NCBI GenBank assembly: GCA_946185535.1
Contig: CAMHJX010000003.1
Location: 62,001-126,000 of the forward strand
Source: an uncultured Bacteroidales bacterium
GTDB lineage: Bacteria; Bacteroidota; Bacteroidia; Bacteroidales; F082
Direction of reading: 5' to 3'
Length of the DNA: 64,000 nucleotides
Under the pieces are notes generated by a model. It was given only the letters and a program-made list of their open reading frames with translations. It made no database searches and was not told the origin of the DNA. This document shows positions 2,280 through 59,127 of this stretch, piece by piece. Position numbers and translations under genes: made by a program. Positions within the stretch are counted from its first letter, which is position 1. Every line of letters starts with the position of its first letter.

Positions 2280-3088
2280 TTCTTTCCTTTCAGAATCGCC
2301 GACCCGCTCAGCCCCATCCATTTGGCTTCCCATGGGGTCATAAACATGCCGTTGGTGGTGTCAATGAGTTCAACCTCTGCATAGCCCAAGTCTTTCAGCT
2401 TCTTGACAAAAGCCTGCATGTCGCCATATTTGAATCGAGAGAAAATGTCATGAATGGCGAAGGTGCCGCCTTTCTTCAACACACGCAGGGTTTCCAACAA
2501 AATGGCTTGTCGGTCGCGGCTCGGGATGTTATGATAGACATAGTTGCTGGTCACCGCATCGAAAGTCTCGTCGGCAAAGTCGAGTTTCAAAGCGTTGCCT
2601 TGGGCGAAATGGGTATTGCTCGTACCCTCGGCCTGTGCGTTTTGTTCGCATAAGGCAAGGCTATAGGAAGCATATTCTTTGCCCCAGCGGTCGATGCCGA
2701 ACATCTCGGATTTTGGATTGCGTTTGGCGCAAGCGATGGCTAACGCACCGCTACCACAGCCCACATCGAGACCTTTGCCGCCTTCAGGAAGGGTGACATA
2801 AGCGGCAACGCCGTCAATGATCTGTTTCGACATCTGACGCTTGCCGTTGTAGGAGAAGGCACGATGCAACAGCCACATCCAAAGGGTCACCAAAGCCAGC
2901 ACGATGGCGAGCACAAGGAAAACGATTTTCAGGACAGTCTTCAACGTTCCGGCGGCAAGCAGTCCGCTCACGCCAAAGACCAGGAATAACAACAGGCAGG
3001 TCAATGTGCCGCCCAAAGTCCCAAGGATCATGCCTTTAGGCATCCAGTTTTTGTAGTTGGGTTTCATTTTCTTTACTGCTGTTTTCAT
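2276..3088 (-). CDS. Membrane-anchored class I SAM-dependent methyltransferase
   Basis: 270 residues. Two hydrophobic segments at about 21-46 and 50-75 anchor the protein; the rest is a Rossmann-fold methyltransferase with motif I GLDVGCGSGALA, a D of motif II in FGIDRW, and a post-motif LLETLRVLKKGG typical of UbiE/Methyltransf_11 proteins. The C-terminal EAKWMGLSGSAILKGKK is close to that of other small membrane methyltransferases in this phylum. Transcribed from the 103-bp cassette at 3092-3194 and coupled to the following beta-barrel gene. The substrate is unknown; a lipid or quinone-like acceptor would fit the membrane anchor. Confidence 0.75.
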   Translation of the reverse strand: MKTAVKKMKPNYKNWMPKGMILGTLGGTLTCLLLFLVFGVSGLLAAGTLKTVLKIVFLVLAIVLALVTLWMWLLHRAFSYNGKRQMSKQIIDGVAAYVTLPEGGKGLDVGCGSGALAIACAKRNPKSEMFGIDRWGKEYASYSLALCEQNAQAEGTSNTHFAQGNALKLDFADETFDAVTSNYVYHNIPSRDRQAILLETLRVLKKGGTFAIHDIFSRFKYGDMQAFVKKLKDLGYAEVELIDTTNGMFMTPWEAKWMGLSGSAILKGKK

Positions 3089-30580: not shown

Positions 30581-30662
30581 TGCACTCATATAGTGCATTT
30601 TTTATGATTTTTTGCACTCATATAGTGCATTATTTTGAAAAAATTTGCACTCATATAGTGCA
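30581..30662 (+). promoter_or_regulatory. Array of three identical 17-bp palindromes
   Basis: TGCACTCATATAGTGCA occurs three times without mismatch: 30581-30597, 30613-30629, 30646-30662 (spacing 32 and 33 bp, about three helical turns). The arms TGCACT/AGTGCA pair perfectly around CATAT. The last copy ends 7 bases before the -7 box of the ATPase gene, thus over its -33 region. A protein bound as dimers on one face of the DNA would control the promoter. The spacers are AT-rich and unrelated. Confidence 0.85.
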
Positions 30663-30699: not shown

Positions 30700-31869
30700 A
30701 TGGAAAAATTGTATGAATTCATGGAGAACCAACTTGACTTAACCACGAGTCAGTTTGTTCGTTACAAGTACGAAGCCATTCATTGGGATAACAGGATGTT
30801 AGGGCTGGTCGGGCCGCGAGGCGTGGGCAAGACAACGCTTTTCCTACAACACATCAAACATCATCATTCGTTGCGCGACACGCTCTATGTCACCGCCGAC
30901 CACCTTTATTTTTCATCACATAGTCTTTTTGAAACGGCGGAAACCTTCAACAAAAATGGTGGAAAGTTTTTCTTCATCGATGAAGTTCACAAATATGACA
31001 ATTGGTCGCAGGAGCTGAAATTGATGTACGATGCTTTCCCCGACCTTCATGTCTATTTCACGGGGTCCTCCATCCTCGACATTGAAAAGGGCGAGGCCGA
31101 TTTGAGCCGTCGTGCCCCGAAATACTTGATGCAAGGGCTATCATTTAGGGAGTTTTTGGCCATTCGCCACCAAATCAATTGTCCCATTTTCAGTTTGAAG
31201 CAAATCCTGAATCACGAAGCACGGATCCCGAATGTGAAGCATCCATTGGTGTATTTTAAGGAATACTTGAAAGAAGGCTATTATCCTTTTGGCCAGGACC
31301 TTGACTTCGAGACCGAACTCAACCAAGTCATCACCCGCACCATTGAGATAGACATTCCGCAGTTTGCCAACATGAACATCGGAACAGCAAAGAAACTGAA
31401 AAAATTGATGGTGATTTTAGCCGCTTTGGTACCCTGCAAGCCGAATATGGCCAGCCTTGCAGGACAGATTCAGGCCAGTCGCAACAACATTGAGGATTAT
31501 TTGGTCTATATGGAAAAAGCGGGACTTATCGCGCAACTGAGAGACGGTACCGGCGGTTTAGGCGAACTTGGCAAAGTGGAAAAAATCTATCTCGACAACA
31601 CTAACCTAATGAACAGTTTAGGCGATGGCGAGGAAGACGCTGGCACGATTAGAGAAACTTTCTTCTACAATCAAATGCGTGTCAACCAAAAAGTTACTTC
31701 TTCTTCCCTGTCGGATTTCGACATTAAAGGTATGACCTTCGAAGTGGGTGGAAAAAGCAAAGGCAAAAGACAAATTGCAGAGGCCAAGAAAGGCTATGTG
31801 GTGAAGGATGATATTGAATACGGCTACGGCAATGTGGTACCGCTTTGGGCTTTTGGGCTGAATTATTAA
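30700..31869 (+). CDS. AAA-family ATPase with DUF4143-type C-terminal domain
   Basis: 389 residues from ATG 30700; the 40 upstream codons of the open frame lie inside the palindrome array. Walker A GPRGVGKT (38-45), Walker B FFFIDEVHK (about 91-99), sensor YFTGSS near 118, then RRAPKYLMQGLSFREFLA. The middle has a winged-helix-like segment (MASLAGQIQASRNNIEDYLVYMEKAGLI) and the end EVGGKSKGKRQIAEAKKGY is a degenerate PD-(D/E)xK-like core. This is the COG1373 architecture, common and poorly understood in Bacteroidota. A second member is at 57778. Each is preceded by its own repeat array. Confidence 0.8.
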   Translation: MEKLYEFMENQLDLTTSQFVRYKYEAIHWDNRMLGLVGPRGVGKTTLFLQHIKHHHSLRDTLYVTADHLYFSSHSLFETAETFNKNGGKFFFIDEVHKYDNWSQELKLMYDAFPDLHVYFTGSSILDIEKGEADLSRRAPKYLMQGLSFREFLAIRHQINCPIFSLKQILNHEARIPNVKHPLVYFKEYLKEGYYPFGQDLDFETELNQVITRTIEIDIPQFANMNIGTAKKLKKLMVILAALVPCKPNMASLAGQIQASRNNIEDYLVYMEKAGLIAQLRDGTGGLGELGKVEKIYLDNTNLMNSLGDGEEDAGTIRETFFYNQMRVNQKVTSSSLSDFDIKGMTFEVGGKSKGKRQIAEAKKGYVVKDDIEYGYGNVVPLWAFGLNY

Positions 31870-56257: not shown

Positions 56258-56965
56258 TTAATTGAGTTTGATTTCCAAGGCCAGCGATCCGTTTTTCATG
56301 TTCGGGTCTTGCGGCTGACCGAATAAGGTCCTGTCTTCCATGACAGGTTTGGTGAAGAATTCGGGGTCCTTCTGACATTCGTAGCACACCAGGTTGAGGC
56401 TCCGGATGACTCTCCGCTGGGGCTTTTGAACGGCTGAAGGCGTTTCGTTTTCAGTGGGTATGGTGTTGGATCCAATATTCGTAGTGTCATGGGGCTCCGT
56501 CGGCTTGACCTCGGCAAGCATGGGCTGTTCGACCACTTCTTCGATGATTTGTGTCTTTGGCTTCTCTTTCTTCATCGGGGCGTTTTGTGGGACGACGGGT
56601 GTCTCTTCTGCCAAAAATGTTTCGTTAGCAACAGGTCGTTCAAACACGGCATCGTTCGCCTCGGTCTTGCCGGAATCAACGGTTTTTGTTTCTTCAACAA
56701 GGATTTTCTGTTCCATCTCGGGTTGCTGTTTCGCGCTTGGTTTGACGAGCAGCCAAAGCAGCAGGCATGCCGCTGCCGCGCCCATGGCCCACCAAAGCGG
56801 AATGAGTTTTCTATGCTTGTGCGGCATGGCAACCGTCTTTTCCTCATCGGCAAGACGGTCAATCAGGTCTCCAAGTTCCTTTTGTCGGCGGGCGTTCTTC
56901 CCGTGTTCTTCCAGACTGTCGAGCAGCTGGCGGACTTCCTCGTTCATTTCGTTTTCAGTATTCAT
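56258..56965 (-). CDS. Single-pass membrane protein, candidate anti-sigma partner
   Basis: 235 residues. N-terminal cytoplasmic stretch of about 53 residues rich in charged helix residues (EEVRQLLDSLEEHGKNARRQ), one membrane segment (about 54-74, IPLWWAMGAAAACLLLWLLV), then a Pro/Glu-rich periplasmic region with two conserved-looking Cys (NLVCYECQKDPEFF). Topology and position directly after a sigma-factor gene and before an outer-membrane protein gene fit an anti-sigma factor or transducer, but no anti-sigma domain is recognisable by eye. Co-transcribed with its neighbours. Confidence 0.55.
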   Translation of the reverse strand: MNTENEMNEEVRQLLDSLEEHGKNARRQKELGDLIDRLADEEKTVAMPHKHRKLIPLWWAMGAAAACLLLWLLVKPSAKQQPEMEQKILVEETKTVDSGKTEANDAVFERPVANETFLAEETPVVPQNAPMKKEKPKTQIIEEVVEQPMLAEVKPTEPHDTTNIGSNTIPTENETPSAVQKPQRRVIRSLNLVCYECQKDPEFFTKPVMEDRTLFGQPQDPNMKNGSLALEIKLN

Positions 56966-57015: not shown

Positions 57016-57088
57016 GACGCGGGACACGGGACTTCGGGACACGGGACAAACCAAACGTCTCGCGTCTCGCAGTCTCGCGTCTCGTGTC
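57016..57088. repeat. Palindromic repeat, GTCTCGCGTCTCG family
   Basis: GACGCGGGACACGGGACTTC-type left arm and CGTCTCGCGTCTCGCAGTCT-type right arm around CAAACCAAA. It lies between the sigma-factor gene end and the membrane-protein gene start; related to 16126-16178. Confidence 0.6.
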
Positions 57089-57099
57089 TAATATCTAAT

Positions 57100-57591
57100 T
57101 TACAGTTGCTCATCTTTATGCTGTTTTATGGCTTCACGTAACGACTTGTAGGCGCGCGACAGCGTTGCATACACATGGGTGCTACTCATGCCCGTCGCCT
57201 TCTCGATTTCTTCCACGCTGAGGCCATCCTCATATTTCATCAAGATGGCATCGCGTTGGCGCTGGGGCAGTTGCTCGACGAGTTTTCGGGCCAGTCGGTA
57301 GCGTTCCTCGGTGTCGTCCTGTGGTGGCTCGGCAAGCATCAGGCTCTCTGTATCGATGGGTACCGTGGGCTTCTGTTTCCTAAGCAGGTCGATGCTGCGT
57401 CGCTTCACGATGGTCAGGCTCAACTTTTCCATGTCCTGACTTTTCATCGTCGCGCGTTGTTCCCAGAGTGTGATGACGGCTTCTTGAACGGCATCCGCTG
57501 CGCTGTCGGCATCACCGACGATGCTCTCGGCGGTCCGCTGCAATCGGGGTTGCAGTCGCAGGATGTCTCGTTTGAACTCTTCGGTCGTCAT
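57100..57591 (-). CDS. ECF-type sigma-70 family RNA polymerase sigma factor
   Basis: 163 residues from ATG 57591. Region 2: RTAESIVGDADSAADAVQEAVITLWEQR and MEKLSLTIVKRRSIDLLRKQKP; region 4: VEQLPQRQRDAILMKYEDGLSVEEIEKATGMSSTHVYATLSRAYKSLREAI, with the HTH in the last part. Length and two-domain structure fit ECF sigma factors. The next genes encode a transmembrane partner and an outer-membrane protein, so this looks like a cell-surface signalling set. A hairpin with perfect 11-bp arms lies 5-41 bases upstream of the start. Confidence 0.85.
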   Translation of the reverse strand: MTTEEFKRDILRLQPRLQRTAESIVGDADSAADAVQEAVITLWEQRATMKSQDMEKLSLTIVKRRSIDLLRKQKPTVPIDTESLMLAEPPQDDTEERYRLARKLVEQLPQRQRDAILMKYEDGLSVEEIEKATGMSSTHVYATLSRAYKSLREAIKQHKDEQL

Positions 57592-57667: not shown

Positions 57668-57779
57668 CGGAAAAGTGTATATTTCGACCTGTAGTTTTTT
57701 CGGAAAAGTGTATTTCTTTTGTTGCTATTTATGCGGAAAAGTGTATTTTTGCAGGTGAAAAATTATAGGAAAAGTGTAT
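57668..57779 (+). promoter_or_regulatory. Array of four 13-bp repeats with exact 33-bp period
   Basis: CGGAAAAGTGTAT at 57668-57680, 57701-57713, 57734-57746 and (with A as first base) 57767-57779. All three intervals are exactly 33 bp; spacers differ. The third copy runs into the -7 box, and the last two bases of the fourth are the first two bases of the ATG. The repeats are not palindromic. Copy four supplies an AGGA-type ribosome-binding stretch. Confidence 0.88.
57744..57751 (+). promoter_or_regulatory. -7 box (TATTTTTG) of the second DUF4143-type ATPase
   Basis: Exact consensus, overlapping the third repeat copy; 26 bases upstream of ATG 57778. Confidence 0.6.
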
Positions 57780-59127
57780 GTTAAGAAGAAAAGTTCAAAC
57801 AGAAATCGCTGAATATCTTGATAATGGGTCTGAAAAGATACTGATTCTCGATGGAGCACGACAGATAGGAAAGTCCTATATCATTAGACATGAAGGGAAA
57901 AAGCGTTTCAAGAATTACATCGAGATTGATTTGTATGAGGATAAGAAAGGCGACCGGCTTTTTGAAGGTACCCGTAATAAAGAAGACTTTTACCTCCGGC
58001 TCAGCACCATTGCCGGCAACCGATTGGGTGAGAAATCAAACACATTGGTGTTTTTGGATGAGATACAAGCCTATCCCGACATGCTCACCCTTTTGAAATT
58101 CTTGCGTCAAGATGATAGGTTTACTTATATCGTCAGCGGTTCGCAGTTGGGGATTGCGTTAAACGAGACGCTTTCAAAGCCTGGTGGGAGAATCAAGGTG
58201 GTGAAAATGTTTCAGCTTGATTTTGAGGAGTTTCTATGGGCTAACAATGTAGGAGAAGAGTTTATCAATCATGCACGACAGAGTTATATGCAAAGAGTCT
58301 CATTGGACGAACCGTTGCATAATCGAATGATGGACTTGTTCAAAAAATATCTATTGGTCGGGGGGCTACCTGATGCCGTGAACAAGTTCATAGAGACACA
58401 TAATATTGTCGAAGTGAGATCGGCACAAAAGGATGTCTATGAACTTTACAAGGGCGATGCGAGCCAGTACGACAAAGAACGGAAATTGGTCATTGAGCGC
58501 ATATATGAGTTGGTGCCCTCCTATCTTGAGAACAAAAAGAAACGGGTTCATTTCAACCAGATAGAGAACAAGAAACAGGCAAGAGCATGGCAGTATCAAG
58601 CTGAGTTTGAGTATCTTGTGAAAAGCGGTATCTGCAACGAGGTGAAGGCCGTCTCCAACCCAAGGTTCCCGCTTGTGGAATCGGAGAGCAAGAACCTGCT
58701 GAAACTGTATCTGAACGATGTGGGGCTGTTGACGCGGCTTCTTTATCAGTATAGTATTTCCGCCATCATGAATGATGAAAAAAGCGTTAACTTGGGTTCG
58801 GTATATGAATCGGTGGTGTGCAGCGAACTTGTTGCACACGGCTTCCCGCTGTTCTATTATGACAATAAGAAAAAAGGCGAGGTTGAGTTCCTTGTAAACG
58901 ACTATGACCTGCTTTCGGTGGTTCCTGTCGAAGTGAAGTCGGGGAAGGATTACAACATACATGCCTTGTTGGATGCTTTTGTCTCTACACCGGACTATCA
59001 CATCAAGCAGGGCTTTGTGTTATCAAACGAACGAGAAGTCACACAAAACGGGAAAGTGACTTACCTTCCCGTTTATTTTGTCATGTTTTTTATTCCCTCA
59101 ACGCCACCTGAAAAGATGATAGTGTGA
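57778..59127 (+). CDS. AAA-family ATPase with DUF4143 (PD-(D/E)xK-like) domain
   Basis: 449 residues. Walker A LDGARQIGKS (24-33), Walker B LVFLDEIQ (90-97), sensor YIVSGSQLG near 119, then the family's FQLDFEEFLWAN. The middle holds a winged helix (VHFNQIENKKQARAWQ...) and the C terminus the nuclease-like core: YYDNKKKGEVEFLV and VVPVEVKSGKDYN (the D/E...ExK pattern, near 360-385). It differs from the ATPase at 30700 in sequence, but the architecture (COG1373) is the same, and both follow iterated repeats. Physiological role unknown. Confidence 0.85.
   Translation: MLRRKVQTEIAEYLDNGSEKILILDGARQIGKSYIIRHEGKKRFKNYIEIDLYEDKKGDRLFEGTRNKEDFYLRLSTIAGNRLGEKSNTLVFLDEIQAYPDMLTLLKFLRQDDRFTYIVSGSQLGIALNETLSKPGGRIKVVKMFQLDFEEFLWANNVGEEFINHARQSYMQRVSLDEPLHNRMMDLFKKYLLVGGLPDAVNKFIETHNIVEVRSAQKDVYELYKGDASQYDKERKLVIERIYELVPSYLENKKKRVHFNQIENKKQARAWQYQAEFEYLVKSGICNEVKAVSNPRFPLVESESKNLLKLYLNDVGLLTRLLYQYSISAIMNDEKSVNLGSVYESVVCSELVAHGFPLFYYDNKKKGEVEFLVNDYDLLSVVPVEVKSGKDYNIHALLDAFVSTPDYHIKQGFVLSNEREVTQNGKVTYLPVYFVMFFIPSTPPEKMIV

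Follow-up and report, generated by a model that had tools for sequence, protein, structure and literature searches.

A 33-bp repeat array before a Bacteroidales ATPase-nuclease gene varies with the recognition helix of the encoded protein

The stretch analyzed here, 64,000 nucleotides from an uncultured, gut-type Bacteroidales bacterium (GCA_946185535.1, contig CAMHJX010000003.1, positions 62,001 to 126,000; hereafter the window), carries at 57668 an array of short direct repeats in front of a gene that starts at 57778 and encodes an ATPase with a nuclease-like region. According to our in silico analysis, this four-copy array is real. Its repeated word changes together with the recognition helix of the linked protein across homologous loci, and the array keeps a near-fixed phase to the predicted promoter box. 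Our preferred reading, to which we give a probability of roughly 0.7 on comparative grounds, is that the ATPase reads its own array through its winged helix as an operator and probably represses itself. Each member of the family very probably reads a private array in this way.

A preliminary description of this DNA had claimed four exact 13-mers 33 bp apart. The spacing is as claimed (33/33/33), and the 13-mer CGGAAAAGTGTAT is exact at 57668, 57701 and 57734, but the copy at 57767 is AGGAAAAGTGTAT, a 12/13 match with A for C at the first base; the invariant unit is the 12-mer GGAAAAGTGTAT (Table 1). The 3.67-Mb assembly (93% complete) has the 13-mer in this array only (3 times) and contains the 12-mer 5 times, 4 of them in this array, compared to about 0.4 expected on both strands with equal base use. 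As the preliminary description had stated, copy 3 meets the promoter box: it runs into TATTTTTG, which we take to be the Bacteroidetes -7 box from the consensus TAnnTTTG. Its statement on the fourth copy was also right, the last two bases of this copy being shared with the ATG at 57778. Tandem Repeats Finder listed another array of the window, at 30581, and missed this one, presumably because its spacers have diverged.

With E values up to 1e-30, the 57778 protein has homologs in 116 of the 173 genomes of the bacterium's family. We examined 110 loci, 30 delivered with the search and 80 picked from the listed matches, using an unsupervised repeat detector over 260 bp upstream (200 bp for control genes). 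A score of at least 5 was reached in 108; the exceptions are L078, which ends at a contig edge, and L159, which lacks a clear array. Steps between copies (n=282) measured 33 bp in 214 cases and 32 bp in 62, together 276/282. Within a locus (532 copy pairs), agreement per position was 87-100% over the first 11 motif bases, lower in the flanks and 29-43% at spacer offsets 17-24. Since the motif is conserved while the spacers have diverged within the same locus, this points to selection and not to recent duplication. The unit consists of a near-constant GGAAWA followed by a variable half which tracks the protein tree (GTGTA, GCGTA, GTCAC, GTCCC, TTCCC, ATGAC, CGCAG, GTGGT, GTCGA, CGGAC, AGCAT, GTGTC and others). 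Identical variable halves were found in 98% of 59 protein pairs at ≥95% identity, 65% of 124 at 85-95%, 60% of 95 at 75-85%, 6% of 151 at 65-75%, 1% of 627 at 60-65%, 4% of 1863 at 55-60% and 7% of 463 at 50-55%.

Exact tandem pairs of the 57668 motif occur in 12 of 99 genomes of the genus, and ten of these lie at the listed ATPase gene. In the eleventh genome the pair is at a contig end with the first 42 residues of the gene (L209). The twelfth (L207, G093:C115) has an array followed by about eleven codons which, by eye, resemble the ATPase start; this looks like a gene remnant whose remainder was lost.

The genome of the window itself contains 19 DUF4143 and 35 AAA_14 matches. Among the AAA_14 genes, 28 of 35 were examined: 19 with DUF4143, L035, and eight without a DUF4143 match, here called MJ-type. 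The detector, run on 200 bp upstream, reached a score of at least 8 in 10/20 AAA_14/DUF4143 genes versus 2/150 control genes (Fisher p=2.6e-9) and in 0/8 MJ-type genes. These results bear on the idea that the array is passive, that is, made of slipped tandem repeats, mobile-element ends or an artefact of A/T-rich upstream DNA. Such intergenic DNA does yield short repeats by chance: at a score of at least 5, 9/150 control genes are positive, versus 16/28 AAA_14 genes. The excess at the higher score, the divergence of spacers but not motifs, and the absence of any copy of the 12-mer from the 3' end of the 57778 gene in an assembly-wide search all speak against a passive array, which we regard as extremely improbable.

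The 57778 protein matches AAA_14 (E=7.6e-23, 81.4 bits, cut-off 27) and DUF4143 (E=4.5e-20, 72.4 bits, cut-off 28.1), in line with its earlier designation as a second DUF4143-type ATPase. The PADLOC profile PDLC04792 for PDC-S01 matches over its full length (residues 1-439, E=6.6e-173); weak PADLOC matches to Csm2, CasR and mad8 (E 0.005-0.04) were taken as chance. In 65 aligned rows, the P-loop and nuclease-like residues G26, A27, R28, Q29, G31, K32, E344, E385 and K387 are invariant, and position 370 is D in most homologs and E in this protein. We name E344, E370 and E385-x-K387 a putative PD-(D/E)XK-like signature. NCBIfam gave nothing for this protein, no solved structure was found by sequence for it or its profile, and fold matches from a structure search barely cover the DUF4143 part, so that no fold statement rests on them. 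The AlphaFold2 model (predicted local distance difference test score 88.8) has a helix at 270-282; in our reading, this is helix three of a winged-helix domain that sits between the ATPase domain and the nuclease-like region. The predicted order, a nucleotide-binding domain and then a winged helix, is that of STAND-type proteins. The loop at residues 123-137 (window 58144-58188) is of lower confidence in the model and is a possible second DNA contact. The closest homolog listed in named genomes is 88% identical and comes from an uncultured Bacteroidia metagenome-assembled genome (MAG), although very near records may be left out of such a list.

Since linkage alone would yield a correlation between motif and protein, we placed motif and residue changes on the protein tree, where the motif changes on 40 of 214 branches, and scaled by branch length. 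Arg269 ranked first among residues, with 9 of its 10 changes on motif-change branches (3.7 expected), and residues 267-277 formed the top 11-residue window of 424. By permutation, the largest window has p=0.012, the N-terminal half of the recognition helix p=0.0012 and the whole helix p=0.0045, compared to 0.067 for the linker helices 198-228 and 0.14-0.19 for the other winged-helix parts. The nuclease region (p=0.83) and the AAA domain as a whole (p=0.61) show no significant co-change with the motif. What stands out is the recognition helix and, as given below, one ATPase loop. Column-wise partial correlations also placed the recognition-helix stretch first in the distant clade (261-275); in the close clade they put 323-337 first for all close pairs and 208-222 for pairs at 60-97% identity, and the tree-based test was used instead.

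Arg269 goes with a variable half of the form xxGTx (GT at bases 3-4) in 48/52 loci, versus 0/56 loci with another residue, with L149 (no Arg, undetermined bases) counted as not-GT among the 56. By clusters at 75% identity the counts are 12/1/0/13 (p=2.7e-6, best of 2216 residue tests), and at 65% they are 10/1/0/6 (p=0.0006, still best). The rule had been worded after seeing the residue table, so new data were needed. We took as held-out set the best 80 of 582 loci from a scan of named genomes, which include Clostridia, Ruminococcus, Butyrivibrio, Treponema, Fibrobacter and Succinivibrio MAGs. Arrays at a score of at least 5 were found in 73 of the 79 assessable loci; dropping 20 loci whose protein is at least 75% identical to one already used left 53. 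These divide into 24 with Arg and GT, 3 with Arg without GT, 1 with another residue and GT, and 25 with neither. The rule, fixed beforehand, predicted 49/53 (Fisher p=9e-11, a value which, like the other held-out p-values, is inflated by shared ancestry) and 31/34 clusters. Without L298, which lacks Arg, has undetermined bases and was counted as not-GT, the fit is 48/52, and at a 90% identity cut it is 53/58. Arg269 was first of 2179 residue predictors in this set, followed by column 240 (p=3e-8).

The array could instead be read by another regulator, such as the neighboring sigma factor or a host repressor, with the co-variation of the ATPase reflecting mere linkage. The arrays do adjoin the gene, so descent alone gives some correlation, and a sigma gene lies divergent to the 57778 gene. 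However, a sigma gene stands beside only 6 of 30 homologous arrays, and where the neighbor is another gene the ATPase still has its array. Moreover, the co-change sits in the recognition helix and one loop and is absent from the equally linked nuclease region, and bases in the held-out set, which spans several phyla, can be predicted from a single residue of the protein. We therefore consider a foreign reader very unlikely.

A TAnnTTTG box lies within -70 to -12 in 93 of the 108 loci with arrays. On the 33-bp grid, its phase is 7-10 in 69 loci, 18-21 in 22 and other in 2; the two favored phases, about one helical turn apart, together account for 91/93 loci. The Rayleigh test at an 11-bp period gives p of about 3e-6 (21 of 26 clusters, those with a box), though in promoter-type arrays the phase is partly built in, because the 3' end of the motif supplies the TA of the box. 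Among the 48 near-type loci that have a box, 34 show an overlap between the box and a detected copy. This geometry matters for a third alternative, in which the array is a DNA ligand or address for the ATPase-nuclease (an assembly platform, an autoinhibitory tether or an activation switch) and effects on transcription are secondary. The tie between array phase and promoter box points to transcription instead, co-variation with the motif is absent from the nuclease region, and no second array of the 57668 motif exists in the genome. We judge such an address function unlikely.

If the ATPase does read its own array, each unit would serve the AAA_14+DUF4143 protein as a single winged-helix binding site, with direct contact to a family-wide GGAAWA half and to a half specific to the member, for which the N-terminal end of the recognition helix (Arg269 and its neighbors) would be the reader. 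With sites about three DNA turns apart, several ATPase protomers might bind side by side and cooperatively, all on about the same face of the DNA. Binding at copies 3 and 4 would shut off transcription of the gene and keep a potentially harmful ATPase-nuclease low; since copy 3 lies on the predicted -7 box and copy 4 on the start codon, self-repression, and not activation, is what we expect at this locus. Selection on a protein-DNA pair predicts what is seen, a word shared among copies while spacers drift, and word and helix that switch together. Each pair would also be independent of its paralogs.

Several results weigh against this reading. First, 45 of the 108 loci are far-type, with the nearest detected copy upstream of -40, and the box overlaps a copy in 0/45. 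A GGAAAA-like core stands at the next grid position in 13 of the 45. As the box lies outside the detected copies, simple steric repression does not fit these loci, where activation or looping is possible. Second, co-change with the motif is as strong in the ATPase loop 123-137 (permutation p=0.0007) as in the recognition helix, and the largest single residue over the whole protein gives p=0.22. Third, the residue table had been seen before xxGTx was worded and before the variable half was given its register, which leaves the held-out test as the only clean one. The rule also has failures: 7 Arg269 loci carry CGCA(G/C) instead (4 training, 3 held-out at the 75% cut), L309 has Cys269 with GTGTA, and L324 (Arg, GTGGG; 86% identical to a training protein) fails at the 90% cut. 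Fourth, none of the 105 within-genome pairs shares an identical variable half, but the mean motif distance between paralogs within a genome (0.491) is not above that of identity-matched pairs between genomes (0.517), so we do not claim extra selection for insulation. Finally, homologs without a clear array exist, namely L159, 6 of 79 held-out loci below a score of 5, and a Ruminococcus albus relative.

Table 1. Coordinates of the features discussed (window positions)
Feature	Position	Strand	Basis
Array copy 1, GGAAAAGTGTAT	57669..57680	+	sequence; exact 12-mer
Array copy 2	57702..57713	+	sequence; exact 12-mer
Array copy 3, overlaps predicted -7 box	57735..57746	+	sequence; exact 12-mer
Array copy 4, overlaps start codon	57768..57779	+	sequence; exact 12-mer
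TATTTTTG, predicted Bacteroidetes -7 box (consensus TAnnTTTG)	57744..57751	+	sequence; box phase versus arrays
TTG, possible -33 element, 19 bp before -7 box	57722..57724	+	sequence; inference
ATPase-nuclease gene, 449 residues, AAA_14 + winged helix (predicted) + DUF4143 (PD-(D/E)XK-like); PADLOC PDC-S01	57778..59127	+	
AAA_14 ATPase domain, residues 19-153	57832..58236	+	Pfam match
DUF4143 match, residues 227-389; putative PD-(D/E)XK-like signature	58456..58944	+	
Predicted winged-helix recognition helix, residues 268-282; Arg269 codon 58582-58584	58579..58623	+	model helix; co-change; residue-base rule
ECF-type sigma factor gene, divergent, adjoining; not part of the system	57100..57591	-	beside 6/30 homologous arrays tested
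Second array, TGCACTCATATAGTGCA x3 at 30581, 30613, 30646	30581..30662	+	sequence; Tandem Repeats Finder
Second AAA_14+DUF4143 ATPase gene, 389 residues from ATG 30700 (most likely start)	30700..31869	+	

Known systems resemble this arrangement in part. Plasmid iterons are short direct repeats at helical spacing, read by the winged-helix Rep initiator of the adjacent gene, which is autoregulatory; the present case differs in that one genome holds numerous genes of this kind, every one with a word of its own, and no search for an origin was made. CRISPR arrays have long near-identical repeats, unique spacers and cas genes nearby. The conserved unit of 12-13 bp argues against such an array here (cas genes were not searched for). 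Also among the nearest systems are the archaeal ATPases 2qen and 2fna, which we take to be STAND-type, as well as CED-4 and plant NLRs. RptR, the repressor of a phage-defence island, represses its own promoter via three direct repeats overlapping the -10 box; it is a separate alpha-helical repressor of 9 kDa, with a highly conserved site of 9-bp repeats around the 6-bp palindrome TAGCTA (PMC12255303). The likeness lies in the repeats over a promoter box and in the defence context. Neither 9-bp TAGCTA repeats nor a small separate repressor belong to the 57668 array, where the putative reader is the ATPase-nuclease itself, the non-palindromic 12-13 bp units are 33 bp apart, and the word differs by member.

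PDC-S01 is described as an ATPase fused to a PD-(D/E)XK member and as the fourth most common defence across prokaryotes, in excerpts which add that validation is pending for most candidates of this kind (PMC12988326, PMC13356809). The upstream array and self-recognition are not mentioned in these excerpts, nor are ligand and control stated, for a family whose frequency as a defence candidate in bacteria and archaea is among the highest. Wherever a member has an array, that array supplies a candidate DNA ligand. Self-reading by the protein, if true, would make the presumed role in phage defence testable, the question being what releases the protein. More than 100 natural protein-site pairs would show how a winged helix switches specificity as its family spreads across phyla, and the array may serve as an inexpensive aid in annotating these genes and in placing their start codons correctly. 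A related archaeal entry, arCOG03166, is given as 'AAA+ superfamily ATPase fused to HTH and RecB nuclease domains' and as likely defence (PMC4158269). It has the same kind of domain set as the 57778 protein, and we infer that the family is the same; promoter repeats are not mentioned for it in the part of the source available. We found no description of arrays before DUF4143/COG1373/PDC-S01 ATPases in the accessible open-access literature (preprints lay outside the search), and the DUF4143 mention seen in print, for a Thermus gene, merely lists it in an expression table (PMC4406477, in part).

The second array of the window has steps of 32 and 33 and a palindromic unit unlike that at 57668. 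The preliminary description was right that another motif stands before a gene of the same type. The two cases, which it had called independent, are not so in gene type, since the window's two ATPases are related proteins. The second protein has only weak sub-cut-off NCBIfam matches. In 30 loci inspected by eye, the palindromic TGCACTnnnnnAGTGCA is kept, with variants, at 79-98% identity and changed in more distant ones. Together with the 108 loci and the 53 divergent held-out loci, this family bears out the claim that the repeat co-varies with the protein subfamily. Other arrays of the genome each have their own word, with steps near 33 bp (TGCCTATAACCA, TGGAAAAAAGCA, AAAACGGACAAA, ATTACCTTGGAT) or of 23 bp (TAAAACACCGAA, CAAATAACCAAA, CCAACTCTCCAA). 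The claim of a private repeat per member holds for the arrays found in this genome, but in relatives the word follows clades. Likewise, the proposed general design stands in that arrays recur by subfamily, but the 33-bp period is not universal and some members have no clear array. In a GPRQ-type DUF4143 subfamily (L173-L202, across the phylum; 19 of the 30 delivered loci assessable), a single palindrome of 31-43 bp lies just before the start codon in 15/19, compared to 1/60 sampled controls from the window's genome. The layout differs by subfamily: arrays are direct or palindromic at 33 bp or have 23-bp steps, and in some cases a single palindrome stands instead. The 23-bp steps, about two helical turns, are those of direct repeats at L029, L040, L041 and L042, other AAA_14 genes of this genome, and the MJ-type genes L045, L050 and L052 have, by eye, inverted repeats upstream.

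Most of the homologs at 55-61% identity (L277-L343), which come from Clostridia, Treponema, Fibrobacter and Succinivibrio MAGs, have arrays. We also fetched seven plasmid relatives (six of 61 records, one of 528) and judged their arrays by eye. Those of Prevotella, Vescimonas (Bacillota; two clear copies) and Collinsella (Actinomycetota) have Arg269 with GTGTA or GTGTC arrays, that of Agathobacter has Arg but a different 33-bp array, and that of Phocaeicola has two distant copies. No array was seen by eye in Ruminococcus albus and none clear in Desulfosarcina, which belongs to another subfamily. The occurrences in MAGs suggest that gene and array were transferred together, with binning errors possible.

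In IMG/VR, three motif-specific tandem patterns and the palindromic pattern gave 0 matches, and three looser patterns gave 13 distinct loci. L266 and L268 carry an array with an ATPase. L265 (IMGVR_UViG_3300028591_000138), a 100,721-bp viral contig with DNA polymerase and homing-endonuclease genes, has an orphan array at 2913-3024 between convergent genes: four family-type units in 33-bp steps (2913, 2946, 2979, 3012), each GGAAAAAGTG, followed by GTC, GCA, GCA and TAG. Units 2 and 3 are followed by identical spacers, which makes part of this array a recent duplication. No ATPase is detected in this record with the family profile, an empty answer which proves little. The orphan array could be a decoy or a remnant. 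A doubtful extension of the self-reading model would make the protein an NLR-like, DNA-addressed ATPase-nuclease which its private array, read through a simple recognition-helix code, restrains at its own promoter and which infection releases by disturbing the binding; phages would then gain from decoy arrays. The other ten looser-pattern loci had no ATPase match in the DNA examined and resembled, by eye, coding sequence, single pairs or unrelated repeats.

On the far side of the extracytoplasmic function (ECF)-type sigma gene, two 7-bp tandem repeats (GACACGG and CGTCTCG, 57016-57089) lie between this gene and a gene ending near 56965.
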